This document shows positions 4,122 through 17,830 of a stretch of DNA of 64,000 nucleotides, one piece after another (position 1 is the first letter of the stretch; every line of letters begins with the position of its first letter). The stretch comes from Nitrospira japonica (GTDB taxonomy: Bacteria > Nitrospirota > Nitrospiria > Nitrospirales > Nitrospiraceae): contig NZ_LT828648.1 in assembly GCF_900169565.1 (NCBI RefSeq), positions 746,876 to 810,875 of the forward strand, given 5' to 3'. A model generated the notes under the pieces. That model was given only the letters and a program-made list of their open reading frames with translations, did no database searches and had not been told where the DNA came from. Made by a program: the position numbers and the translations under genes.

Positions 4122-7100
4122 CTAGCGCATCACGGAAGACACAGGACCGATCCGAGGCGGAGTCTCGGCGTCGGCCTGCTTCACCCCCGGGCGAACGCCC
4201 GAAAGGGCCTTGATGCGTTGGTCGCCAGCCGGGAGCACACGCAGATAGCCCCATTGTCCTGACTGCGAATAGGGCAACCGCTGATTGCTCCACACATAAT
4301 CGCCCGGCATCCGGAATGGGCCTCCGGCGCTGGGGAGGAAGGCATCCAGGGTTTCAGACCCGGAGAACTCCACCACGCTGATCATGTCGGCTCCGCGCAT
4401 GAAGGGCTCGATCGGCCACTCATGGCGTTCGACGCTGAACATGCCGTTCTGCTCGTTGCTCGCCCCGAACACGTGGATCCGCACGGAATCTCCCGCGTGG
4501 GCCTCGATGATCGGGGTCGCGGGGTCTTCGGGTTTGTCCACCACGCAAGGCTGGAAGACCTTGCCCAGGCTGCACCCGGTGTCCTGGCGGAACTTATAGG
4601 GTTCCGCGCGGTAGTTGACGGCGGTCAGGCCCGCGGTGTTCTGCACGTAGGGCATGAAGCTCGTCCCGATGATGTTGTCCTCGTCCTGGAAGAACAGGGC
4701 GACGTCGCGGTAGTTGACGCGATTCTCATACCCCTGAATGGTCCGGTCGACGATGACGTCGGCCACCCAGCTGTTCTTGGTCGAGATATCCAGACCGGTC
4801 TTGGGATCCCGATACTGGGCTCCCCTCGGACCGATCACGACCGCGCCATAGAGCCCGTTCCGCGGATGAAGCATCACGTTGCCCCAATCCCACACCAGCG
4901 AAGCGGTTTCTCCCAGGAACGGATCCGCATAATAGGTGTACGTGCGGCTCTCTCCCGGCGCCACCGTCTGCTCGCCAGGATTGTTGCCGACGTTCGCCCC
5001 GAGCGAATCCTTGGGGTCGAAGGCCAATCCGATGGCGGAGAACGAAGCGCGTCCTTCCTTCATCTTGTTGGTCAGCTTGATCTTGAGACAGTCACCCACG
5101 TTGCCGCGCAACGTCAGCGGCATCGGCTGCACGCCGCCGCTTACCTTGGCGACTTCCTCTTCCAGCGCGTAGATCTTCGCGTTCGGATTCACCATTTGGA
5201 TCGTCCGCTCGAAGTCGACTTCGATCGCATCAGGCGCCTTCGGATTCAGCTTCATCGAGGGATAATCCATCGCCACGACATTGAAGCTCTTCACCGGGGC
5301 GTCCGCCGGACAGATGGGGAGCGGCTGCGGAATGTTGTTCCTGCGGCTGTAGCCGGCAGGCAGCTTCTGCAGATCTGCCGCTTCCTTGTCCAGCACCCGC
5401 ATGATGCCCCACGCACCTTCCGAGAACTTCGAGGTGCGACCGTTGAAGTGGATGTAGTCTCCCGGTTGGAGCCGCGGTCCGCCGGCCTGCGGCACCACGA
5501 GATCGTAGCGCTCCGCAATGCCGATGTGGATCGAGTTCTTCCGGTTCGCATCGCCGGCATAACGTTCGGTCAGATAGGTATGGCCGGACAGCGTCCATAC
5601 CATCGTTTCGTTCGCCATGGTCTGAAGCAGCCGGAACACGACCGTGTCGCCCAGATATGCCCGCACCATCGGCGTGTACGGATCGCCGTGGACGGCGCTG
5701 CTGAACAGCTTGGACGAGTCCGGATTTGCTACCAGGCGGCTGGACACCGGCTCCGCCTTGAAATTCAACCCTCCGCCCGTCGTATGCGTTCCGCCGTTGA
5801 GGAACGGCATCGGCGTCATCGGGATCTTTTCCGGCATCGGGAACGACACGGTCTTGCCGGCTTCGAGGGCCACCTCGATGGGCTGCCCGGGAGGATTGCC
5901 GGCCGTGACGATGTTCACCGTATGCGGCACGGTGTCATTCAACTGCACGATCAACTCGCGGAAGCTGCCGTTGACTCCGTAACCCACCGGCTCGATGGTC
6001 CGGATGTCGGCCAACGGTCCGCTCCGGATCGGCTTGCCCGTCTTCGGATCATGGTAGGTCGAACCCACCGGTTCGATGACGATCGTCCCGAATCCCCCGT
6101 GCGGCCAGGTCACCCGACCCAACGCGTGGTCGTGCCAGAAGACCGTTCCCACGTCGGAATCCACCCAGAAGCGCTGACGGACGAATTCGACCGTCACGAT
6201 ATCGTTCACCGGATGATCGTTCTTCAAGGGCCTGTACAACGTGATCTGGTTCCCCTTGATGGATTTCACCCGTCCGATTTCGTTGCCTCCGACATTGTCC
6301 GCACCGATCAGCAGCTCCGCGTTCGTGTGGTACTGCGCGGCGTTCTTGAGCGTGATCACCCGCTCGCCTTTCTTGGCGGCCTTGGTGAACGTCGTGTTCA
6401 TCGGCAGCGGGAGGCCTTTGTTGACTTTTTTCTGCAGCATCGTGAACGGACGCACCGACTGCTCATACGAGAAGCCGGTGATCACGCCGTCCGAGGACTG
6501 GTTGTCGAACTGAAGGAAATGCCAATGCGTGTTGATCTTCGACGAATGGAAATTGATGTGGTCGTCGTCCTCCCACTCACTGGTCAGCATCCAATCGATA
6601 CAGTCGTAAATATTCGCCCGCACGACGAGCGGATACTTGATGGCGCTCTTCCGGACCTGGGCCTCTTCCTCGTGCAGCACGTAGATCAGGCCGTCCTTGT
6701 CTTCGATCGCCGGCGTATCGCCCTGCTTGTCGGCCAGGGTCATCGGCGTTTGGATGAAATGCACGTTGTACTTCTTGGAGCCCGCGTTCTCCGGGCACAT
6801 GCTCCAGCGCCCGTTCTCTCCCGGCTTCGCCGGATAAGAACTGGGCAATCCGTCGTCATCGAGGTGGATCATGTCCAACCAGGGGGACGGATTGTGGTTC
6901 TGCGAGAACGGCACGCGCCGGCCGAAGTGCGGCTTCAGGTGAGGCCACGCGACTTTACCGGTCGCGCTCTCGAACAGAATCGGCACGCGCTTTCCGGGAG
7001 TGGCGGACTTATACCGCGGATTCTCCACGGTATTTTCACGCTCGGTCATCGCCCGCTCGCCCTGCCAGGCCCAATCCAGCACGCTGGCATCGTACGAGCT

Positions 7101-8960
7101 GGTCTGCGCCCGCTCGTCGGTCTTGTGGCCCGGCTGCCCCTGGGGAGGCAACTGCATGGTGACCCAATCCTTCACGTTGACGACGGCAGGCGAAGCCTTC
7201 CAATCCGTCTTCCCATTCTTGACGATGGTGAACTCCTTGCCGAACCAGTCCACCGTGCGACCGACGAGCTGATCCGACGTCACGCCGGGCTGAATACGAC
7301 CCGTGCGGTCCGGGAGTTCCCGAAGGGCCGGCATCACGTCATTGTGGACTTCGCCCTGTTGCAGGGTGTTGTACACGCGCCAATACCCCCACATGCCGGC
7401 GATATAGTGGTGCGCGACGTGGCAGTGGAACAGAAAATCACCGGCCAGCTGCTGGCAGAGGCCCGATCCGCACTCCGTTTCCAGATCCATCGTCTCGGAG
7501 GGACCGATTACTTCCACGTCGACCCGGTCGGACTTGGTGCGGATCACGGGATACTTGACCGGGCCGTTTTTGGCGGCGTGCCACAAGGGCATTTCGTCGA
7601 TTGCGCGCGGGCTCCGCGGCCAGCGGATCGAACCGCCGTGCGGATGATGGGAGTGAAATACCTCCGATCCGCCGTGTACGAGGCGGAACTTCGCCGGATC
7701 TCCCAGATAGCTGCGCGGCACGGTGGTGGCTGGATCACCGAACGTATAGGCGCTGTAGGCCATGGATTCGTCTTCGAATCCGAAATATTCGTGCTGCGTC
7801 TGCATGTTGTCGACGCCGAACGGCTCGCTGCGATAGTTGAGTGCGCGGGCGACCGGCCGGTAGACGTCGGTCAACGGATCGCGCTGGGGGAGAAAATCGC
7901 CCTTCTTGTTCAGCGGTCTGAACGCTTCATCGCCGACTTCGTGATACATCAGGACGAATTCACGGAAATCCGGTCCCGCACCGTTCTTGATGATCGCCTG
8001 CCATCCGCTGGTCATCGGGGTCGGAGTGCCGCTGCCGATCGGATCCAGGTACTCGGATCCCTTCGGTTCGACCACGAACGTTCCGAACAAGCCCATCACC
8101 GTCAATTCGCGATCGTTGCTGTAGGAGTGGAACTGCCGTCCGCCTTCCTGCTGCGTCGGCGGAATGTACCATTCGAATTCGACGGTCTTGCCCTGCGGAG
8201 CCACGCTGTCGGGGTTGGTCGTGGTTGCGGGCTGTCCGGTCGACGCGACGATCATGCTGGAGCCGTGGATGTTGAGACTGACCTCCTCGCCGCCATCGAG
8301 CTGATTGCGCAGCGTCATCTTGACGCAGTCGCCCTGGTTGCCACGGATCACCAGCGGCTGAATCCACTGGCTCTGCAAGCCGTTCTTGACCGCGCCCGGG
8401 TCGTAACCTTCTTTTTCGCGGGCCGCGCGATTGGTGGTCTCCTCTTCCCGTACTTTGTCGATGTTCTCGGTGAGGACGTACATGTACCCGGGATAATAAT
8501 CGAGCCACATGTTGAGCGAAATCTCGACGTTGATCGCCGAAATATCATACTTCCTGACCGGGGCGGATGCGGGGCAGCGCCCGCCCGTCGCGGACACCGG
8601 CTCGGCACCGGAATCGGACATGAGGAGCACGTCCTGATTGCCCGCGCCGTATTGATGCATCATATTGACGTTGTTGAAATAGCCGCTGGTGCGCTGCGCC
8701 TCGGCGTCCCGCTCCATCTGCTCCATGACCCGATGATGCTGGCGCTCCATCATCGCCGCGCGGTCCGGCCGGCCTTCCATCGAATCCTCGACGATCGTCT
8801 GCCCCTTCAGCCGTTGAGTCCACGCGACGGGCGTCGCCGACTCGACCTCCTGATGGGCCTCGTGGGTGGATTCGGCCACCGCCTCGTTACCCATTAGCAT
8901 GAGGGTCACTGCACATAGAATTCTCGCCCACGAACGATCCTGCTTACCTCTCCTCTGCAT
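4122..8960 (-). CDS. Giant periplasmic multicopper oxidase with six cupredoxin-like domains in permuted order
   Basis: 1612 residues. The ATG at 8960 follows GAGAGGGG; an in-frame start at 8990 lacks a site. A Sec signal ends near NEAVAES. Three tandem two-domain units can be traced (about residues 130-530, 565-1190 and 1218-1580). Unit 1 domain 2 carries HSHHPHGG (HxxHxH, near 436) and HCHVAHHYIAGM (HCHxxxHxxxxM, near 512), i.e. type 1 copper and half of the trinuclear site. The two remaining HxH motifs, THWHF (near 812) and FWHDHALGR (near 942), lie in unit 2 domain 1. Unit 3 has lost its histidines. A complete oxidase site therefore forms only between domains 2 and 3. The substrate (metal, nitrite, phenolic) is unknown. 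It sits 61 bases downstream of nirK, probably in one operon. Confidence 0.9.
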   Translation of the reverse strand: MQRRGKQDRSWARILCAVTLMLMGNEAVAESTHEAHQEVESATPVAWTQRLKGQTIVEDSMEGRPDRAAMMERQHHRVMEQMERDAEAQRTSGYFNNVNMMHQYGAGNQDVLLMSDSGAEPVSATGGRCPASAPVRKYDISAINVEISLNMWLDYYPGYMYVLTENIDKVREEETTNRAAREKEGYDPGAVKNGLQSQWIQPLVIRGNQGDCVKMTLRNQLDGGEEVSLNIHGSSMIVASTGQPATTTNPDSVAPQGKTVEFEWYIPPTQQEGGRQFHSYSNDRELTVMGLFGTFVVEPKGSEYLDPIGSGTPTPMTSGWQAIIKNGAGPDFREFVLMYHEVGDEAFRPLNKKGDFLPQRDPLTDVYRPVARALNYRSEPFGVDNMQTQHEYFGFEDESMAYSAYTFGDPATTVPRSYLGDPAKFRLVHGGSEVFHSHHPHGGSIRWPRSPRAIDEMPLWHAAKNGPVKYPVIRTKSDRVDVEVIGPSETMDLETECGSGLCQQLAGDFLFHCHVAHHYIAGMWGYWRVYNTLQQGEVHNDVMPALRELPDRTGRIQPGVTSDQLVGRTVDWFGKEFTIVKNGKTDWKASPAVVNVKDWVTMQLPPQGQPGHKTDERAQTSSYDASVLDWAWQGERAMTERENTVENPRYKSATPGKRVPILFESATGKVAWPHLKPHFGRRVPFSQNHNPSPWLDMIHLDDDGLPSSYPAKPGENGRWSMCPENAGSKKYNVHFIQTPMTLADKQGDTPAIEDKDGLIYVLHEEEAQVRKSAIKYPLVVRANIYDCIDWMLTSEWEDDDHINFHSSKINTHWHFLQFDNQSSDGVITGFSYEQSVRPFTMLQKKVNKGLPLPMNTTFTKAAKKGERVITLKNAAQYHTNAELLIGADNVGGNEIGRVKSIKGNQITLYRPLKNDHPVNDIVTVEFVRQRFWVDSDVGTVFWHDHALGRVTWPHGGFGTIVIEPVGSTYHDPKTGKPIRSGPLADIRTIEPVGYGVNGSFRELIVQLNDTVPHTVNIVTAGNPPGQPIEVALEAGKTVSFPMPEKIPMTPMPFLNGGTHTTGGGLNFKAEPVSSRLVANPDSSKLFSSAVHGDPYTPMVRAYLGDTVVFRLLQTMANETMVWTLSGHTYLTERYAGDANRKNSIHIGIAERYDLVVPQAGGPRLQPGDYIHFNGRTSKFSEGAWGIMRVLDKEAADLQKLPAGYSRRNNIPQPLPICPADAPVKSFNVVAMDYPSMKLNPKAPDAIEVDFERTIQMVNPNAKIYALEEEVAKVSGGVQPMPLTLRGNVGDCLKIKLTNKMKEGRASFSAIGLAFDPKDSLGANVGNNPGEQTVAPGESRTYTYYADPFLGETASLVWDWGNVMLHPRNGLYGAVVIGPRGAQYRDPKTGLDISTKNSWVADVIVDRTIQGYENRVNYRDVALFFQDEDNIIGTSFMPYVQNTAGLTAVNYRAEPYKFRQDTGCSLGKVFQPCVVDKPEDPATPIIEAHAGDSVRIHVFGASNEQNGMFSVERHEWPIEPFMRGADMISVVEFSGSETLDAFLPSAGGPFRMPGDYVWSNQRLPYSQSGQWGYLRVLPAGDQRIKALSGVRPGVKQADAETPPRIGPVSSVMR

Positions 8961-9021
8961 TATGGTTCCCCTCTCAAGAGTGTGGATCACACATCTGGCC
9001 CAAATGGCCTACAATTCCGGT

Positions 9022-9996
9022 CTACCGGTCGGCTGCGCCCGTCCAGGCCACGTCGCGGTCCTGTGGCGGCGGCAGAGCCTCGAAGCTGGTCTTTGATGTC
9101 TCCTCGTTGGACACATGAATGAGGCCCAGCGCCCCGGTTAACGCGTCCTGCAAGGAATGCGTTACCATCGGGTACATGCCCTCTTCAGGAAGCACGAGAT
9201 CGAAGGTCGCACCTCCGCCCGGCGGCAGCGTGTACGTCTGGATGCCATGCTCGATATTCTTGGGATTGCCGCTGGCATACACGCGATCGAACACGGCGCC
9301 GATGACGTGAAACGCCGAAAAATGATTCGGCCCGGCATTGACGACGTGGAGGCGGATCAACTCACCCGGCTTCGCCCGGAGCGGCTCGTCGAGGTATTTG
9401 TTCGCACGGCCGTTGAACACGACGAGCTTCGGCTTGCCAGCCATCATCGTATCGACGTCGTGCGGGGTCGGATAAATCTCACTCTGGACGATGACATACT
9501 CACGGTCCGCTTTCACGACAGGCGTTCGCGGTTCCACGATCACCGCGCCGAACATCCCGTTGGCGATGTGCTGGATCATCGGATCGGTGCCGCAGTGGTA
9601 GTAGAACTCTCCGGGATAATCGGCCTTCCATCGAAAGCTGGACTCCGATCCGGTGGGCACCCCTTGAAAATGCAGGTTCCACGGGGTCTTGGCCGCGTGG
9701 AAATCGATCGAGTGGACGCGGTCGGCCTCGTTCTTCAGCGTAAAATCGACGACGTCGCCCTCCTTGATCCGGATCACGGGACCGGGGAACGTATCGTTGA
9801 AGGTCCAGGCTTCACGCTGGTCGTCTTTGGCCACTTCGATCTTCGTGACGCTCGCGCGCAATTGGACGGCGACCTCACCCGCGTCACTCGTCTGCGCGCA
9901 GAACAGCCCGACCGCCGACCACGCCAGGAGAGACGTGACGGAGGAGAGGCCCTGCCCTTGCCGAAATGACGGGCCGCGGAACCTTGTGTCGCTCAT
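9022..9996 (-). CDS. nirK: Copper-containing nitrite reductase, periplasmic
   Basis: 324 residues with a signal peptide up to about residue 39. Two cupredoxin domains. All expected ligands are present: His95, Asp98 and His100 in VHSIDFHAA; the type 1 site His134-Cys135, His143 and Met148 in HCGTDPMIQHIANGM; His230 in AFHVIG; and His280 in VTHSLQDA. The enzyme reduces nitrite to nitric oxide. It is found in many Nitrospira, where its physiological role is unsettled. The ATG has AGGGAG five bases upstream. A sigma-54-type promoter lies about 85 bases upstream, the gene for an enhancer-binding regulator lies next to that, and the multicopper oxidase follows downstream. The protein is slightly short for the family, but no active-site residue is missing. 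Confidence 0.95.
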   Translation of the reverse strand: MSDTRFRGPSFRQGQGLSSVTSLLAWSAVGLFCAQTSDAGEVAVQLRASVTKIEVAKDDQREAWTFNDTFPGPVIRIKEGDVVDFTLKNEADRVHSIDFHAAKTPWNLHFQGVPTGSESSFRWKADYPGEFYYHCGTDPMIQHIANGMFGAVIVEPRTPVVKADREYVIVQSEIYPTPHDVDTMMAGKPKLVVFNGRANKYLDEPLRAKPGELIRLHVVNAGPNHFSAFHVIGAVFDRVYASGNPKNIEHGIQTYTLPPGGGATFDLVLPEEGMYPMVTHSLQDALTGALGLIHVSNEETSKTSFEALPPPQDRDVAWTGAADR

Positions 9997-10080: not shown

Positions 10081-10096
10081 AGCAACAGATGTGCCG
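10081..10096 (-). promoter_or_regulatory. Sigma-54 (-24/-12) promoter of nirK
   Basis: On the minus strand the sequence reads CGGCACATCTGTTGCT, against consensus TGGCACNNNNNTTGCW. The invariant GG and GC dinucleotides are exactly 10 bases apart and only the first base deviates. Transcription would begin near 10070, leaving a leader of about 75 bases before nirK. The adjacent gene encodes a sigma-54 activator. Confidence 0.7.
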
Positions 10097-10237: not shown

Positions 10238-11764
10238 TCAGACTACCGGAAAATTCACGGGCCGCTTGAGCCCGAGTTTCTTCATACGGCTTCGCAACGT
10301 ACTGGGATTCATCCCGAGTTGAGCCGCGGCCCCGTAGGTTCCGTAGATCCGCCAATGTACCGATTCCAGCACGTGCTGAATATGGCGACGCTCGACGTCG
10401 ATCAGGTTGGACGTCGATTCGGCCACTGCGTTTCCACCCACCAGGGCCTGAGGTTCGATGGTCAGGACCGGCGACTGGGCCAGGATGACGGCCCGCTCGA
10501 TCACGTTCTGCAGTTCGCGCACGTTGCCCGGCCAGGAGTAGTTGGTGAGCCGCGACATGGATTCCTCGCTCAGCTCCAGCATCGGGCGTTTCAATTTCGC
10601 CCGATAAGCTTCAAGAAAATGCCGGGCCAGGAGCGGGATGTCTTCACGCCGTTCCCGCAGCGGAGGCAAAGCGATGGGAAATACGTGAAGGCGATAATAC
10701 AGGTCCTGTCGGAACCGTCCTTCGTTGACGGCCGACACGAGATCGGAATTCGTCGCGGCGACGATGCGGACGTCGACGGGAATGGGGCGCGTGCCGCCGA
10801 CGCGGTCCACCAGCCCGTCCTCCAGGACACGGAGCAGCTTCGCCTGGGCTTCAAGCGGCATCTCGCCGATTTCGTCCAGGAACAGCGTGCCGCCGTTGGC
10901 CAATTCAAAACGGCCCGCACGCCGTTGGTCCGCCCCGGTGAATGCGCCGCGCTCGTGGCCGAACAACTCGCTTTCGACCAATCCCATCGGCAGCGCCGCG
11001 CAATTGACGCGGACGAACGGTTTATCGCGACGGGCGCTCAACTCATGGATGGCCCGCGCCATCAGTTCTTTTCCGGTGCCGGTTTCACCGGTGACCAACA
11101 CGGTGGTGCCGGTCGGTCCGACGGCCTCCGCCTGCGTCAAGGCGGTCCGGAACGCCGCGCTCAGCCCCACCATTGCGCCGAAGTTGTGCGTGAGCTTCAA
11201 CTCCTCAACCAGATATTCATTTTCGCGTGCCAGCTGATGCCGCAACCGATCGATCTGTTCGTAGGCTTGAACGTGACCGATCGCATAGGCGATTTGCGTC
11301 GCCACGAGTTGAAGGAATTCCAGATCGGTCGGGTCGGGATCTCCGCACTCCACGCTGCCGATGTTCAATGTTCCGATGCAGTCGCTGCCCACCATGAGCG
11401 GGGAGTTGATCATACGGCCCAATCCCTCGCGCACGTAGTATTCGTCCTCGAGAAACAGCCGTTGCCGACGGAGATCCGGTCGGACGTGAATCGTCCGATT
11501 CTCATAGACCCACCCCACGGCGCTGCCGACCTTGGGAATGACCGCGTCACGCGGCAGCTCCCGGTGCGGCAGGGTCGTTTCCACCGCGTAAAACCTGAAT
11601 GAATCGCTGTCTGAGTTGTAGAGGGTGACGCCGGCGCGCTCCCATGGAAGGACTTTTCGGATTTGCTCGGTGATCGCGCGCCAGAGGCTGTCGGTATCGC
11701 GCTGGGAGTTCAGAACATTGGTGACGGCCAGTAAGGCGCGATAGCTTTCATCGTCGTTCCGCAT
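10238..11764 (-). CDS. Sigma-54-dependent transcriptional regulator (GAF - AAA+ - Fis HTH)
   Basis: 508 residues. An N-terminal GAF sensor domain (about 8-168) is followed by a short coiled linker. The AAA+ domain has Walker A GETGTGKE (226-233), the sigma-54 contact loop GAFTGA (273-278), Walker B TLFLDE (293-298), and FRQDLYYRL (351-359). A Fis-type helix-turn-helix lies near residues 460-500 ([18 protein letters not shown]). This FhlA/NorR-like layout activates sigma-54 RNA polymerase in response to a ligand bound by GAF; which ligand is unknown. It is encoded between the nxr operon and nirK, both on the same strand. The ATG follows GGAGGAACGAGG. Given the neighbouring sigma-54 promoters it is the likely activator of nirK and perhaps of nxr. 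Confidence 0.93.
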
Positions 11765-11947: not shown

Positions 11948-12592
11948 TCACGTTTCGACACGACGGGGAACGGCAAAGGCGGCCGACACGACCTTCATGA
12001 GGAGGAGCCCGACCAGTACGGCGCCGGCCTGAGCGGCGATAAGTTGCCACATCGCCTGCTTCCAATACCCGTCTTGGGCCTCATCCGTCTCTCGGAATTC
12101 ACGCTCGATCTTGGAGTCCAAATCGTCGAAGACATTGGCAATCGTTTTCGCCAGCGCCACTCCGTCACCGCCACGAACGTAGTTGAGGACTTCTTGTTCC
12201 TGGCCCGACCCGATCTTGAACGTCAGCTGGCGCTTCGTCTCGATCAACTCGGCGAGCCGTCGTTTGAGCACCTGGACGCTTCCCTTAAGCGACGGAGTCT
12301 TCTCCGTCAATTCGGTCAACCGGTCCAGCGCCGGGGGAATTTCCGCCTCGGCCGCCACCACCGGCACCAGGAACACGCTCTGGCGCATTAATGCGTACCC
12401 GCGAAACCCGCTGTCGATATCGGTGGCCAATCGCCGAAGCTGCAGGACTTGCACCGTGATGGCGTTGCGGAGTTCCTGCGCGTCGGACACTTCGTGCCAC
12501 TGCTTGAGAATGTAGATTTGCTCCGCTCCAAAAAACAGAAGGAGAAGGACGCCCGTGCACAGGTATGCCCATACTTTGTTCCGTTGTCGCAC
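11948..12592 (-). CDS. Orphan CHASE3-domain membrane protein downstream of nxrB
   Basis: 214 residues from a GTG at 12592, which has GGAAGGA 8 bases upstream. The longest open frame would start at 12706, but it would read into the hairpin behind nxrB. An N-terminal membrane helix (VWAYLCTGVLLLLFFG) is followed by an extracytoplasmic all-helical domain with the CHASE3 hallmark DIDSGFRGYALMRQ, and then by a second membrane helix (LIAAQAGAVLVGLLL) and a short tail. CHASE3 normally senses an unknown signal for histidine kinases, chemoreceptors or cyclases, but no output domain follows here. It is encoded directly after nxrB. It could be a partner that reports periplasmic state, or a truncated receptor. 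Confidence 0.75.
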   Translation of the reverse strand: MRQRNKVWAYLCTGVLLLLFFGAEQIYILKQWHEVSDAQELRNAITVQVLQLRRLATDIDSGFRGYALMRQSVFLVPVVAAEAEIPPALDRLTELTEKTPSLKGSVQVLKRRLAELIETKRQLTFKIGSGQEQEVLNYVRGGDGVALAKTIANVFDDLDSKIEREFRETDEAQDGYWKQAMWQLIAAQAGAVLVGLLLMKVVSAAFAVPRRVET

Positions 12593-12684
12593 CGCTCGCT
12601 TCCTTCCAATTTCGACGCTCCGCACCGGCTCGAGGCCGTTCGAGCCGATGCCGAGAATGATGAGGGAACAGCCTGCAGATACAC

Positions 12685-12719
12685 GAAGGGCAGAGTATTG
12701 AATCAATACTCTGCCCTTC
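12685..12719 (-). terminator. Long perfect hairpin downstream of nxrB
   Basis: A 17-base arm and its exact reverse complement are separated by one base (GAAGGGCAGAGTATTGA and TCAATACTCTGCCCTTC). It lies 48 bases beyond the nxrB stop codon. There is no U-tract on the minus side, so it may act as a 3'-end stabiliser or attenuator between nxrB and the CHASE3 gene rather than as a full terminator. Confidence 0.5.
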
Positions 12720-12767: not shown

Positions 12768-14057
12768 CTACAGCCAGTTCACCCGTTCCGCGGGTCTGAT
12801 GTAGATCGGCTCTTCGACCTGAATGCGCGCCACTTCCTTCCCCGACTTGTTGAAGCCCAGCACGGTATCGTTGTACATCTCGAACCGCTTCCCGTGAATC
12901 TGGGTCTCAAACACCTTCGGGCCCGGAATGACGTCATACCGGAAGACGATCTGCTGACTGGCGCGCCACAGCTGCAGCACCGCCAACAACTCCCGGCTCG
13001 GCACCAGATACTTCTCAATGGCATTGTCCACGCCCGGACCGAACATCTGCCGGGCATAGCCCCGCGGGCTGTGCCGCGGCGGAATGTAATAGCCATTGGG
13101 CTCCGTGCCCCACTGCGGATACAGAGGCAACGCCACCTGCTCCACCCGAATGGTGTAGTACAGGGGGTGCCACCGGTCCTCCGCCCACAGGCCGTCCTCG
13201 CCGATGCGCACCAGGCTCTGCATGCGGATCTTCCCCACGCACGCCGCCATACAGCGCGTTTCCATCGGCTCGCCGCCCGTCAGCGGATCCTTCCCCTCGA
13301 TCCGCGGATAGCACGCAATGCACTTCTCCGACACCCGGGTCGTCCCCCGGTACATCGGCTTCTTGAACGGGCACTGCTCCACGCACTTCTTGTACCCGCG
13401 GCAGCGGTTCTGGTCGATCAACACAATGCCGTCTTCCGGCCGTTTATAGATCGCCTTGCGCGGGCAGGCGGCCAAACAGCCCGGATACGTGCAGTGGTTG
13501 CAGATCCGTTGCAGGTAGAAGAAGAACGTCTCATGCTCCGGCAGCGAGCTGCCGGACAGCCGCCACGGTTCATCGCGCGAGAACCCCGACCGATCGATCC
13601 CCTCCACCAAGGAGCGCATCGACGTGGCCGTGTCCTCGTAGATGTTCACGAAGCGCCATTCCTGGTCCGTCGGAATGTACCCGATCGCCGCCTGGCCCAC
13701 CTTGGCCCCCGCGTCGAAAATGGTCATCCCTTCGAACACCCCGTAGGGCGCATGGTGCTTGCGGCCCACCCGCACGTTCCACACCTGCCCCCCCGGGTTC
13801 ACTTGCTCGATCAACTGCGTGATCTTCACGTCGTAGAACTGGGGATACCCGCCGTACGGCTTCGTCTCCACGTTGTTCCACCACATGTATTCCTGGCCCT
13901 TCGAAAACAGCCAGGTCGACTTGTCCGCCATCGAACACGTCTGACACGCCAAACACCGGTTGATATTGAACACAAAGGCAAACTGCCACTTCGGATGCCG
14001 CTCCTCATACGGATACAGCATCTTCCGTCCCAGTTGCCAGTTATAGACTTCTGGCAT
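12768..14057 (-). CDS. nxrB: Nitrite oxidoreductase beta subunit (iron-sulfur electron transfer)
   Basis: 429 residues. The four cysteine clusters of the DMSO-reductase type II beta subunit are visible: CLACQTC (35-41), CNHCTYPGCLAACP, CRGYKKCVEQCP, and CIAC with the later CMAACVGK. These bind one [3Fe-4S] and three [4Fe-4S] clusters that carry electrons from the molybdenum site of NxrA towards the membrane chain. There is no signal peptide, so export probably occurs with the Tat-targeted alpha subunit. It is encoded 78 bases after nxrA with GAAGGAGGATTCACA just before the ATG. This is the standard functional marker gene of Nitrospira. Two hairpins follow the stop codon. Confidence 0.97.
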   Translation of the reverse strand: MPEVYNWQLGRKMLYPYEERHPKWQFAFVFNINRCLACQTCSMADKSTWLFSKGQEYMWWNNVETKPYGGYPQFYDVKITQLIEQVNPGGQVWNVRVGRKHHAPYGVFEGMTIFDAGAKVGQAAIGYIPTDQEWRFVNIYEDTATSMRSLVEGIDRSGFSRDEPWRLSGSSLPEHETFFFYLQRICNHCTYPGCLAACPRKAIYKRPEDGIVLIDQNRCRGYKKCVEQCPFKKPMYRGTTRVSEKCIACYPRIEGKDPLTGGEPMETRCMAACVGKIRMQSLVRIGEDGLWAEDRWHPLYYTIRVEQVALPLYPQWGTEPNGYYIPPRHSPRGYARQMFGPGVDNAIEKYLVPSRELLAVLQLWRASQQIVFRYDVIPGPKVFETQIHGKRFEMYNDTVLGFNKSGKEVARIQVEEPIYIRPAERVNWL

Positions 14058-14135: not shown

Positions 14136-17100
14136 TTACACCTTGATCTTGATGTGCTCACCTTTGAGCCACTTGATCATGAACTCGTTCTCCTGTCCCG
14201 GGGTAAAGCCGGTGCGCACCGGTTCCCACGGGCCGCGCGCTCCGATGCCGCCGTCTTCCGCCTTGGTGATGCGGATCAAGCATTCCTTCGGCACCGTGTT
14301 GACCGCGTGGTGGTCGATTTCGAACCCCCACTTCCATTTCAACCCGTTGGCGTGTTTGCCCGGGAGCGAGTCGGTCTGGTGCATCGGCATCAGCCACGAC
14401 CGGGTAAAGGACTGTTGGGCCCCGTACCGGAAGTTGGACTGATAGCCGGTGTCCACCGCGATGGCTCGGCCGTCCGGCCGGGTCTCGTGGCCCTTCACCG
14501 ACTTCGCCGTCGACACGTACGGGGCGTGCTTCGCCATCGTCACGTGGTACGGATAGGCGGGGTTGTACTTCGCCCGGATCATCAGACGGGCGACTTTATA
14601 GTAGGGGTCACTCGGCTTCCAGCCACGATAGGGCCGGTCCACCGGGTTGCCGTCCACATAGACGTAGTCGCCGTCGTTGATGCCGCGGTCTTTGGCCGCC
14701 TGCGGGTTGATGTGCAACTGGTGCTCGCCGACGCCCGGCGTCCGTTTGTCCATGCGGTACGGATCGCCGAAGTTCGACTCGTAAATCTGCACCCAGTCGT
14801 TCACCGACCACTGGCTGTGCACCCGGTGCCGGGTCTTGGGCGTCACGCAGTAGAACTGGTAGCCCTTCTCCCACAACGGGTTGGCGTGTTGCTTGATTTC
14901 CCCCCACGGCAGCTTGATGTTGCGCACCGTCTTGTCGTCATGGTGCTGCGCCGTGATCGGAATGCCGTAGTCGTCCGGTCGGACGTACGGGTTGGTCGTG
15001 AAGATGGCGTTCGGCAGATACGGGGTCGCCTCCGGGCCTTCCCGGTGAACGATGAAGTTTTCCCCGTACTCGATCGCCTCGGGCTCCACCCGATACGTTT
15101 CCAACCGCCCGGATCGCGTCCACTGCGGCTTGCTCTCGTTGACCTCTTCCCAGAGCGGATGGCGCGGATAGGTTCGCACCATGACCATCCAGCCCTTTTC
15201 CGACTTCAGCATCACGTCGGCGCTATAGCCGTACAACGTGCTCGACGCATCGAACACGCGCTGCGCATAGACGTCGACGCGATTTAGGTAGACGAAGTGG
15301 AAGACGTCCCGTATCTTCGTATCACCGGTCATCTCCGACAACTTGGCCGCGACCCCGGCAAAGGTATCCAGGTCGTTGCGGGTGTCGTACAACGGCCGGA
15401 TGCCGCCCTTCCAGACCTGAATCCAGGGATTCGACACCGTCGCCGTCATCTCCGGATAGGTGAATTCCATCCAGGAGTTGCAGGCAAACGCGATGTCGGC
15501 GTGGTTGACGTCCGAGGTCATCTCGATGTCTTGCGTGATGATCATCTCGATGTTCGGATCCACGTTGCGCACCATGTCATAGTGGTGCTTGGAATTGTTG
15601 AGGACGTTCACGTTGACGACCCACCGCACCTTGCTCGGGCTCGGCATGTGCGTCTTACCCGTGAACACCTTGCGTCCGTACTTCGGCGTATTGACGATCA
15701 GGGCGGTGTCGCCGTGGTTCCAATAGCCGGGCTCCTCGCCGTAGTAGTAGGTCTTGTAATGGATTTCCTTCCCGTGTGCGTTCGGATCCAGATTCGTGTG
15801 CCACGGGTCTTCCGACAGATGGACTCCCGCGCCGGCGCCTGACCACGGCGCCGCGTTCCAGATGCCCACCTTGTAGTTGCCGGACCAAGTATGACAACCC
15901 GTGCCGAACTTGCCGACGTTGCCGGTCAAAATCATAACCAGCGCCGCCGCCCGTCCCATCGACGTCATGTGGAAATAGTGACACACGCCTTCGCCGTTGT
16001 GAATCGCGGCGGGCTTGACCGTGCCACAGTCCCGCGCCCAGCGGACGATCAGGTCCTTGGGCGACCGGTTGATCTGATGCACCGTGTCCAGATCGTAATC
16101 CTGGAAGTGCACCATGTAGAGCTGATAAATCGGCGCGACGTCGACTTCGCGGCCGTTGAGCATCTTCACCCGGTAGGTCCCGGTGAGCGCCGCATCGACG
16201 CCCGTTTCCTGGTAGTGCACGCCCACTTGTTCACGATGGAGCGGCACCGCCTGCTTCTTGTTGAGGTCCCAGACCATCATGCCGCCAAGCCGCTGGATGT
16301 ATTCCGGCTTGAGGCCCTGTATGCGGCCCGAATACGAGTGGCTGAAATCGGGCAATGCATAATCCTTGACGACGTCCCGCGGATCCAAATACTGCAGGGT
16401 ATCGGTCCGCACGAGAAGCGGCATGTCGGTGAACTGCTTCAGAAAATCGATGTCGTGCAGATTCTCCTCGACGATGATCCGGCTGGCCCCGAGGAACAGG
16501 GCGCCGTCAGACTCCGGACGCACCGGAATCCAATAATCGGCGCGGTAGGCCGTCGGATTGTATTCCGGCGTGATGACCACGATGCGGCCGCCACGCTCGA
16601 TGGACTCAAGCTTCCAGTGGGCTTCCGGCATCTTGTTTTCGGTGAAGTTCTTGCCCCAGCTCGTATTGAGCTTGGAGAAGCGCATATCGGAGAGGTCAGT
16701 GTCGCAATTCTGCGTCCCGTTCCACCACGGCTGGGACGGGTCCTGGTCGCCGTGCCAGGTATAGTTGTTCCAATACCGTCCGCCCTGGGCCTGGTCCGGA
16801 CCGACTTTTCTGATCCAGGCGTCGACCAGTGGCAGAACGCTGTTATTAAAACGGGTATTGCCGTGCTTGCCCAGCAACCCGAGAATCGGCATACCGGCGC
16901 GATGCTTGAAGCACCGGACTCCGGCGCCCTTCATCATCTCGATCATTTCCGGCGCATAGCCCTGCTCGCGCAGACGCCGCGCGCCCGCTTCGCCGCTGTA
17001 GCGGGTCCCGATGACGATCAGGCCCTTGCCCGCATAGGTGAAGGCCGTATCCCAGGACACCCGAATCATATCGTCGAGGAAGCGGCTGTCGAACTTGTAC

Positions 17101-17573
17101 TTCCGCTTCGTCTCCGGCGTGAGCTCCGGGGAGCCGTCGTCCATCCACTGCTTCCAGCCCTTCCGCATCAACGGTCCCTTCAACCGATACGGCCCGTAGA
17201 CGCGGCGATGGAACGTGAATCCCTTCAAGCACATGCGCGGATTGTGCGCGAACGTCCCGCGGTTGCCGTAGAGATCTTCGTAGGTTTGATGGTCATAGTT
17301 CTGCTCCACCCGCATGACGACGCCGTTGCGGACGAACGCCCGAATGCGGCATGCATGGGTATCGTTCGGAGAGCAGACCCAGGTAAATGACGAATCGTAC
17401 CGGTACTGATCGTGATACACCCGCTCCCAGGAGCGGTCCGGATAATCGCCCAGCGGGTTCCCGACTTCGATGACCGGCTGTAAGGCCGTCAACGCCAGGA
17501 CCTTGTCCGCTACCGCCACCGCGGCCACGGTGCCCGCCGAGATCTTTAAGAATTGTCGACGTGACCAAACCAT
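14136..17573 (-). CDS. nxrA: Nitrite oxidoreductase alpha subunit (molybdenum catalytic subunit, Tat-exported)
   Basis: 1145 residues. I start at the ATG at 17573, preceded by AAGGAGG at 9 bases. The in-frame start at 17750 would run across the promoter region. The N-terminus has a perfect twin-arginine motif, SRRQFLK, then a hydrophobic stretch, giving a periplasmic enzyme. The type II DMSO reductase signature follows: CSPNDTHAC (67-75) and RMCLKG (Cys115) for the [4Fe-4S] cluster, RRVYGPYRLK, and the molybdenum-site region YWNNYTWHGDQDP...GTQNCDTDLSD. The enzyme oxidises nitrite to nitrate, the energy-yielding step of nitrite oxidation. It pairs with nxrB. No haem gamma subunit is encoded next to it. 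Leader and upstream sites are described separately. Confidence 0.97.
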   Translation of the reverse strand: MVWSRRQFLKISAGTVAAVAVADKVLALTALQPVIEVGNPLGDYPDRSWERVYHDQYRYDSSFTWVCSPNDTHACRIRAFVRNGVVMRVEQNYDHQTYEDLYGNRGTFAHNPRMCLKGFTFHRRVYGPYRLKGPLMRKGWKQWMDDGSPELTPETKRKYKFDSRFLDDMIRVSWDTAFTYAGKGLIVIGTRYSGEAGARRLREQGYAPEMIEMMKGAGVRCFKHRAGMPILGLLGKHGNTRFNNSVLPLVDAWIRKVGPDQAQGGRYWNNYTWHGDQDPSQPWWNGTQNCDTDLSDMRFSKLNTSWGKNFTENKMPEAHWKLESIERGGRIVVITPEYNPTAYRADYWIPVRPESDGALFLGASRIIVEENLHDIDFLKQFTDMPLLVRTDTLQYLDPRDVVKDYALPDFSHSYSGRIQGLKPEYIQRLGGMMVWDLNKKQAVPLHREQVGVHYQETGVDAALTGTYRVKMLNGREVDVAPIYQLYMVHFQDYDLDTVHQINRSPKDLIVRWARDCGTVKPAAIHNGEGVCHYFHMTSMGRAAALVMILTGNVGKFGTGCHTWSGNYKVGIWNAAPWSGAGAGVHLSEDPWHTNLDPNAHGKEIHYKTYYYGEEPGYWNHGDTALIVNTPKYGRKVFTGKTHMPSPSKVRWVVNVNVLNNSKHHYDMVRNVDPNIEMIITQDIEMTSDVNHADIAFACNSWMEFTYPEMTATVSNPWIQVWKGGIRPLYDTRNDLDTFAGVAAKLSEMTGDTKIRDVFHFVYLNRVDVYAQRVFDASSTLYGYSADVMLKSEKGWMVMVRTYPRHPLWEEVNESKPQWTRSGRLETYRVEPEAIEYGENFIVHREGPEATPYLPNAIFTTNPYVRPDDYGIPITAQHHDDKTVRNIKLPWGEIKQHANPLWEKGYQFYCVTPKTRHRVHSQWSVNDWVQIYESNFGDPYRMDKRTPGVGEHQLHINPQAAKDRGINDGDYVYVDGNPVDRPYRGWKPSDPYYKVARLMIRAKYNPAYPYHVTMAKHAPYVSTAKSVKGHETRPDGRAIAVDTGYQSNFRYGAQQSFTRSWLMPMHQTDSLPGKHANGLKWKWGFEIDHHAVNTVPKECLIRITKAEDGGIGARGPWEPVRTGFTPGQENEFMIKWLKGEHIKIKV

Positions 17574-17719
17574 GAGGATAGTCCTCCTTGCTGTGAAAAT
17601 AAAAAGCCCGATGATATGCGCCCCTACGTATCGAGAACCTTCTCGAACTCCACCTCCTTTCCCTCCACCGTTTTCGGACAGATCGCGCCGATTGCCGGTG
17701 GAGCCGTCGGTTTCGATAT

Positions 17720-17735
17720 GGCAACTCCCATACCA
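17720..17735 (-). promoter_or_regulatory. Possible sigma-54 promoter of nxrA
   Basis: On the minus strand TGGTATGGGAGTTGCC has GG and GC exactly 10 bases apart and keeps TGG at -24 and TTGC at -12, but it deviates at three consensus positions. Transcription would begin near 17708, giving a leader of about 135 bases. The repeat cluster 95-180 bases upstream supports it. Confidence 0.45.
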
Positions 17736-17830
17736 CCGCCTTATTCCCAAACGTGACTCACAAATTCATGATTACCCTAGGTAAATGTTGTGAACGCGCG
17801 GCGTGCGCGGCAGCGCACAGGACGGGCCAT

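Follow-up and report, generated by a model that had tools for sequence, protein, structure and literature searches.

A multicopper oxidase of the MnxG-like six-domain type, with its copper motifs in domains 2 and 3, beside the nitrite oxidoreductase genes of Nitrospira japonica

The oxidase gene and its cassette

The window analysed is a stretch of 64,000 nucleotides of the 4.08 Mb Nitrospira japonica genome (contig NZ_LT828648.1, positions 746,876 to 810,875), and all positions below are counted from its first letter. The genes and elements considered here are the following.

4122 to 8960, minus strand: gene of a MnxG-like six-domain multicopper oxidase, 1612 aa from the ATG at 8960 (assigned from reading frame, motifs and homology)
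8874 to 8960, minus strand: probable Sec signal peptide MQRRGKQDRSWARILCAVTLMLMGNEAVA of the oxidase, judged by eye from the sequence
9022 to 9996, minus strand: NirK-type copper nitrite reductase, directly upstream of the oxidase on the same strand, with a 61-base gap
10081 to 10096, minus strand: sigma-54-type -24/-12 element CGGCACATCTGTTGCT, 84 bases upstream of nirK
10238 to 11764, minus strand: GAF-AAA-Fis sigma-54 activator (NifA-like)
11948 to 12706, minus strand: CHASE3-domain protein, a member of the conserved cassette
12768 to 14057, minus strand: NxrB, nitrite oxidoreductase (NXR) beta subunit
14136 to 17750, minus strand: NxrA, nitrite oxidoreductase alpha subunit, whose true start is probably internal

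The oxidase frame extends over 4122 to 8990 on the minus strand if begun at the GTG at 8990, which would give a product of 1622 aa. The ATG at 8960 is preferred as the start, since GAGAGGGGAACCATA in front of it makes a good ribosome site and the better of the two, so that the limits 4122 and 8960 proposed in the first-pass annotation are retained. Residue numbers in this text are counted from the GTG start (1622 aa). The product is probably exported and periplasmic. An antisense frame of 1491 aa (4422 to 8897, plus strand) runs opposite the oxidase and is probably a GC-rich shadow frame.

The succession of nxrA, the gene for the CHASE3-like protein, the activator, the oxidase, hemD and the FGE gene also occurs in genomes G003 and G006. 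N. moscoviensis has its nxrAB, activator, oxidase, hemD and FGE genes grouped together. The cassette includes nirK in G003, N. moscoviensis and UBA5699; in G006, it is the same NXR-activator-oxidase-hemD-FGE cassette without nirK (L117 compared with L118, L035 and L050). Since G006, a close relative, keeps the cassette without it, nirK is either a separable insert or was lost, and it would thus be a lineage-specific member of the cassette. Of the NirK copies in the genomes sampled, those reaching 80% identity are confined to G000, G001 and G003, the others being about 50% identical. A NirK match at E<=1e-60 is present in 33 of 61 genomes, and most oxidase loci are without nirK. The adjacency of oxidase and nirK pointed out initially is therefore correct for this genome, but limited to certain lineages.

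A sigma-54-type site such as the one upstream of nirK is expected in 0.8% of random 244-base single-strand draws. In three other lineages CGGCACATCTGTTGCT is kept as an invariant block between diverged flanks. In addition, the N. defluvii-like clade devoid of nirK has TGGAACGRGAGTTGCT ahead of the oxidase itself, at a distance of 219-256 bases and near another sigma-54 activator. The oxidase is probably cotranscribed with nirK, and these sequence features suggest that it is probably placed under sigma-54 control via the neighbouring activator. NifA-like and other sigma-54 regulators have been described at the nxr loci of N. moscoviensis (PMC6606698). The sigma-54-type element and the lineage-specific pairing with nirK appear to be the new points here, and they are modest ones.

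In an operon of this kind, NirK, which reduces nitrite to NO, and the O2-reducing copper oxidase would be switched on together. It is improbable, however, that a sigma-54-controlled operon of these two genes beside NXR couples the nitrite oxidation machinery to Mn or NO oxidation in this lineage. Ceruloplasmin is known to oxidise NO, and the common strand, the 61-base spacing and the single shared sigma-54-type element would agree with an oxidase that turns NO into nitrite or otherwise handles the NO made by NirK, the two genes forming an NO-balancing pair. This proposal is nonetheless very unlikely, given that G006 and most other oxidase loci do without nirK, that many genomes with the oxidase have no NirK match at the above threshold, and that NO sensing by the GAF domain of the regulator is only putative.

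Domain architecture and copper motifs

The internal organization of the oxidase, as obtained by profile comparison for the repeats and from the repeat alignment and AlphaFold for the insert, is as follows.

7296 to 8597, minus strand: repeat 1, domains 1-2, residues 132-565
5346 to 6818, minus strand: repeat 2, domains 3-4, residues 725-1215
4191 to 5333, minus strand: repeat 3, domains 5-6, residues 1220-1600, without copper motifs
6177 to 6395, minus strand: beta-rich insert of domain 3, about 70 aa, residues about 866-938

The three copies of the two-domain unit (E=9.5e-20, 1.9e-26 and 3e-29) are in register, each starting with a CPxxAxxKxY-like sequence and having a second conserved Cys. 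Together with a match to MnxG over several stretches, they bear out the initial description of six cupredoxin domains in a single chain. The domain 3 insert, without counterpart in repeat 3, was folded with good confidence in AlphaFold; it sits between the two HxH motifs and is conserved in Nitrospirota. In genomes G038, G041, G052, G054, G056 and relatives (family f3), the match to one paralogue is broken into two segments near residue 912, and its frames of about 1720-1770 aa suggest a longer domain 3 insert.

The copper motifs are listed below with the ligand roles predicted from knowledge of the family.

7635 to 7655, minus strand: HSHHPHG (HxxHxH) from residue 446, domain 2; H446 putative type 1 ligand, H449 and H451 putative trinuclear ligands
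7392 to 7427, minus strand: HCHVAHHYIAGM (HCHxxxHxxxxM) from residue 522, domain 2; H522 and H524 putative trinuclear ligands, C523, H528 and M533 putative type 1 ligands
6516 to 6530, minus strand: THWHF from residue 821, domain 3; H822 and H824 putative trinuclear ligands
6126 to 6140, minus strand: FWHDH from residue 951, domain 3; H953 and H955 putative trinuclear ligands

These motifs make up a complete type 1 and trinuclear ligand set, as first read from the sequence, with HxxHxH and HCHxxxHxxxxM in domain 2 and the two HxH in domain 3. The set is not a product of chance, because every H-x-H of the 1622-residue protein (five occurrences) falls inside the motifs. Each of the twelve ligands is present in 101-103 of the 103 full-length homologues, as read from alignment columns: H449, H451, H822, H824, H953 and H955 in every one, H446 in 102, and H522, C523, H524, H528 and M533 in 101, the remaining two rows having X. 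Domain 2 is the best conserved region of the protein (mean 0.92). Loss of ligands from all the remaining domains had also been claimed; this applies to domains 4, 5 and 6, where no motif is left, whereas each of the two H-x-H positions of domain 1 still has one vestigial His (H242 in 96/103, H288 in 103/103). Domain 6 has no HCH motif and neither H-x-H motif of domain 1 is complete, and the ceruloplasmin-type trinuclear site at the 6/1 interface is not present in the Nitrospira oxidase.

The top PDB match of the oxidase is MnxG (9bxa; E=3.3e-83 with phmmer, 3.6e-105 with a profile), where HVFHYH and HCH are followed by HIH and HDH, that is, in the same order. The Ala at the type 1 His position of 9bxa is accounted for by the entry being the H340A variant. 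Moreover, the ligands align in the same order in distant relatives from Streptomyces, Priestia, Rubrobacter and Haladaptatus plasmids, except that Phe replaces the axial Met in Rubrobacter. This motif order was thus present in every distant relative checked. In all analysed bacterial six-domain oxidases, and in algal Fox1, the trinuclear site lies in domains 2/3, and in the bacterial enzymes the mononuclear site lies in domain 2 (PMC3600357, 2013). On sequence grounds, the Nitrospira protein is a MnxG-like bacterial six-domain multicopper oxidase, and its domain 2/3 copper layout is the already published norm of bacterial and archaeal MnxG-like oxidases. It is not MnxG in the strict NCBIfam sense, because its score of 132.7 is far below the cut-off of 3100 bits of the equivalog NF041487 (copper_ox_MnxG).

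AlphaFold models of domains 1-4 and domains 3-6, computed with a shallow alignment of 34 Nitrospirota sequences, reached pLDDT values of 50.7 and 59.6, respectively. Most of domain 2 was at about 20-30, and domains 2 and 4 were unfolded, with distances not measurable. A fold search with these low-confidence models returned 9bxa first, followed by a factor V-type chain and ceruloplasmins, which lends weak support to the fold. Homology to MnxG and family knowledge indicate that the ligands of domains 2 and 3 would meet at the interface.

Origin of the motif order

The first-pass annotation had viewed the protein as a ceruloplasmin-like oxidase with a circularly permuted copper site. What stands of this reading is the six-domain fold and the copper set split over domains 2 and 3; a special rotation event is not supported, since the order is standard across the family and triplication followed by site loss suffices. 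Because the oxidase is a triplicate of a two-domain unit, its three even/odd interfaces are equivalent, and the loss of two of the three equivalent interface sites explains the motif order without rotation. Ceruloplasmin would have retained the 6/1 interface and the MnxG-like family the 2/3 interface, and the vestigial His of domain 1 fit the loss of a former 6/1 site. This corresponds to the differential-loss scheme already published in PMC3600357.

A true circular permutation, in which an ancestor with the ceruloplasmin order was rotated to D5-D6-D1-D2-D3-D4 and the site moved to domains 2/3, would yield the motif order observed, and the fold is indeed of the ceruloplasmin type. Such an event is nevertheless highly unlikely. 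The whole family has this order, in two domains of life, as does algal Fox1 (PMC3600357), and the vestigial His of domain 1 occupy two H-x-H positions, as expected if every interface once had a site. The three repeats are in register, although register alone would be compatible with rotation by a whole repeat, and neither an intermediate nor a boundary scar was seen. Among publications combining "circularly permuted" and "multicopper oxidase", none dealt with such an oxidase according to title and abstract.

The four motifs fall into two sets separated by 300 residues, as they might if two separate two-domain enzymes had been joined by an assembly or annotation error. This has a negligible probability and is refuted by the homologues: a single open frame of about 1600 codons, without stops, is kept in dozens of independent genomes, and neither half holds a complete copper site. 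The oxidase is a single enzyme, as originally taken, and differential loss is the preferred account of its motif order.

Occurrence, probable function and known relatives

Of 61 near relatives, 59 have the oxidase. A sample of the phylum gave matches in 102 of 246 genomes, 101 of those belonging to the same class; as judged from these matches, it is conserved throughout class Nitrospiria. Three copies are present in this genome (100, 72 and 66% identity), and two N. defluvii loci (L078, L110) are 74-82% identical to the oxidase. Strict coupling between oxidase and NXR was considered and is not supported, with the oxidase in 59/61 genomes, a NxrA match in 41/61 (counts to be taken with caution, as nxr copies assemble badly) and one genome with NxrA and no oxidase. 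The near-universal presence in Nitrospiria, with or without detected NxrA, may reflect a housekeeping role other than Mn oxidation. At L115:6279-8232 (minus strand) and in 53 loci, the 72% paralogue is followed by two tandem CarboxypepD_reg proteins and then a HEAT-repeat protein. The tandem proteins carry a cupredoxin-like MQCGFHAYM motif and are possibly electron partners of the oxidase.

In multicopper oxidases, the type 1 copper oxidises the substrate, a Cys-His bridge leads to the trinuclear cluster, and this cluster turns O2 into water. By family analogy, substrate electrons would enter the Nitrospira enzyme one at a time at the type 1 copper (H446, C523, H528, M533). The Cys523-His522/His524 bridge would carry them to the trinuclear cluster formed by H449, H451, H522 and H524 of domain 2 with H822, H824, H953 and H955 of domain 3, and O2 would be reduced to water there. 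Overall, the protein is very probably a periplasmic MnxG-like six-domain O2-reducing oxidase, built from a triplicated unit and having copper only at the domain 2/3 interface.

The tentatively proposed substrate is a low-valent metal, Mn(II) being the likeliest, with a probability somewhat short of even. Mn(II) would rank first through the kinship with MnxG, followed by Fe(II) or Cu(I), NO being a minor candidate. Ceruloplasmin is a ferroxidase, and multicopper oxidases with such sites often take part in copper or iron homeostasis. A CueO- or ferroxidase-like oxidation of periplasmic Cu(I) or Fe(II) would also agree with the copC-type genes that adjoin distant relatives, but is rather unlikely here, as copper-export or iron-uptake genes were not recognised beside the oxidase and the closest characterised relative is MnxG. 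Bacillus MnxG requires MnxE and MnxF (PMC5622069); neither is among the annotations near the oxidase gene, to which this check was confined. If Mn(II) oxidation were correct, almost all Nitrospira would combine nitrification with manganese oxidation, with a bearing on oxidative stress handling and on manganese removal in drinking-water filters (PMC12070406). Nitrospira MAGs with MnxG occur where manganese is oxidised, and Mn oxidation in sand filters has been suggested (PMC12070406). A Mn(III)-based defence against ROS/superoxide is proposed for a MnxG-like oxidase in the passages of PMC3578206 devoted to it. The structural interest is smaller, the domain 2/3 copper site being a known bacterial family layout.

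A close published counterpart comes from Nitrospina gracilis and Nitrospira defluvii (Lucker 2013, PMC3578206), a putative periplasmic multicopper oxidase described as MnxG-like, as conserved in Nitrospira and as part of the NXR gene cluster. The Nitrospira japonica oxidase shares the kinship and the location, and the relevant passages of that account do not take in the motif order, the sigma-54-type element or the nirK pairing. Bacillus MnxG (9bxa; PMC5622069) has the same six cupredoxin domains, motif order and type 1 site in domain 2, but is only about 20% identical and shorter (1217-1227 aa versus 1612), the Nitrospira oxidase being extended at its N-terminus and having in addition a long linker behind domain 2 and the domain 3 insert. 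Ceruloplasmin, hephaestin and factor V/VIII share the six-domain ring fold with a trinuclear site at an even/odd domain interface; ceruloplasmin differs in having this site between domains 6 and 1, in its additional type 1 sites and in an identity of about 10%, and no ceruloplasmin was retrieved from the PDB by sequence profile at E<=0.1. Finally, two-domain laccases (SLAC, Ssl1) have a similar domain 2 motif stretch, and each repeat of the oxidase resembles their two-domain unit. These laccases are short separate chains, three of which come together in a trimer with three sites, whereas the Nitrospira oxidase is one chain with one site.
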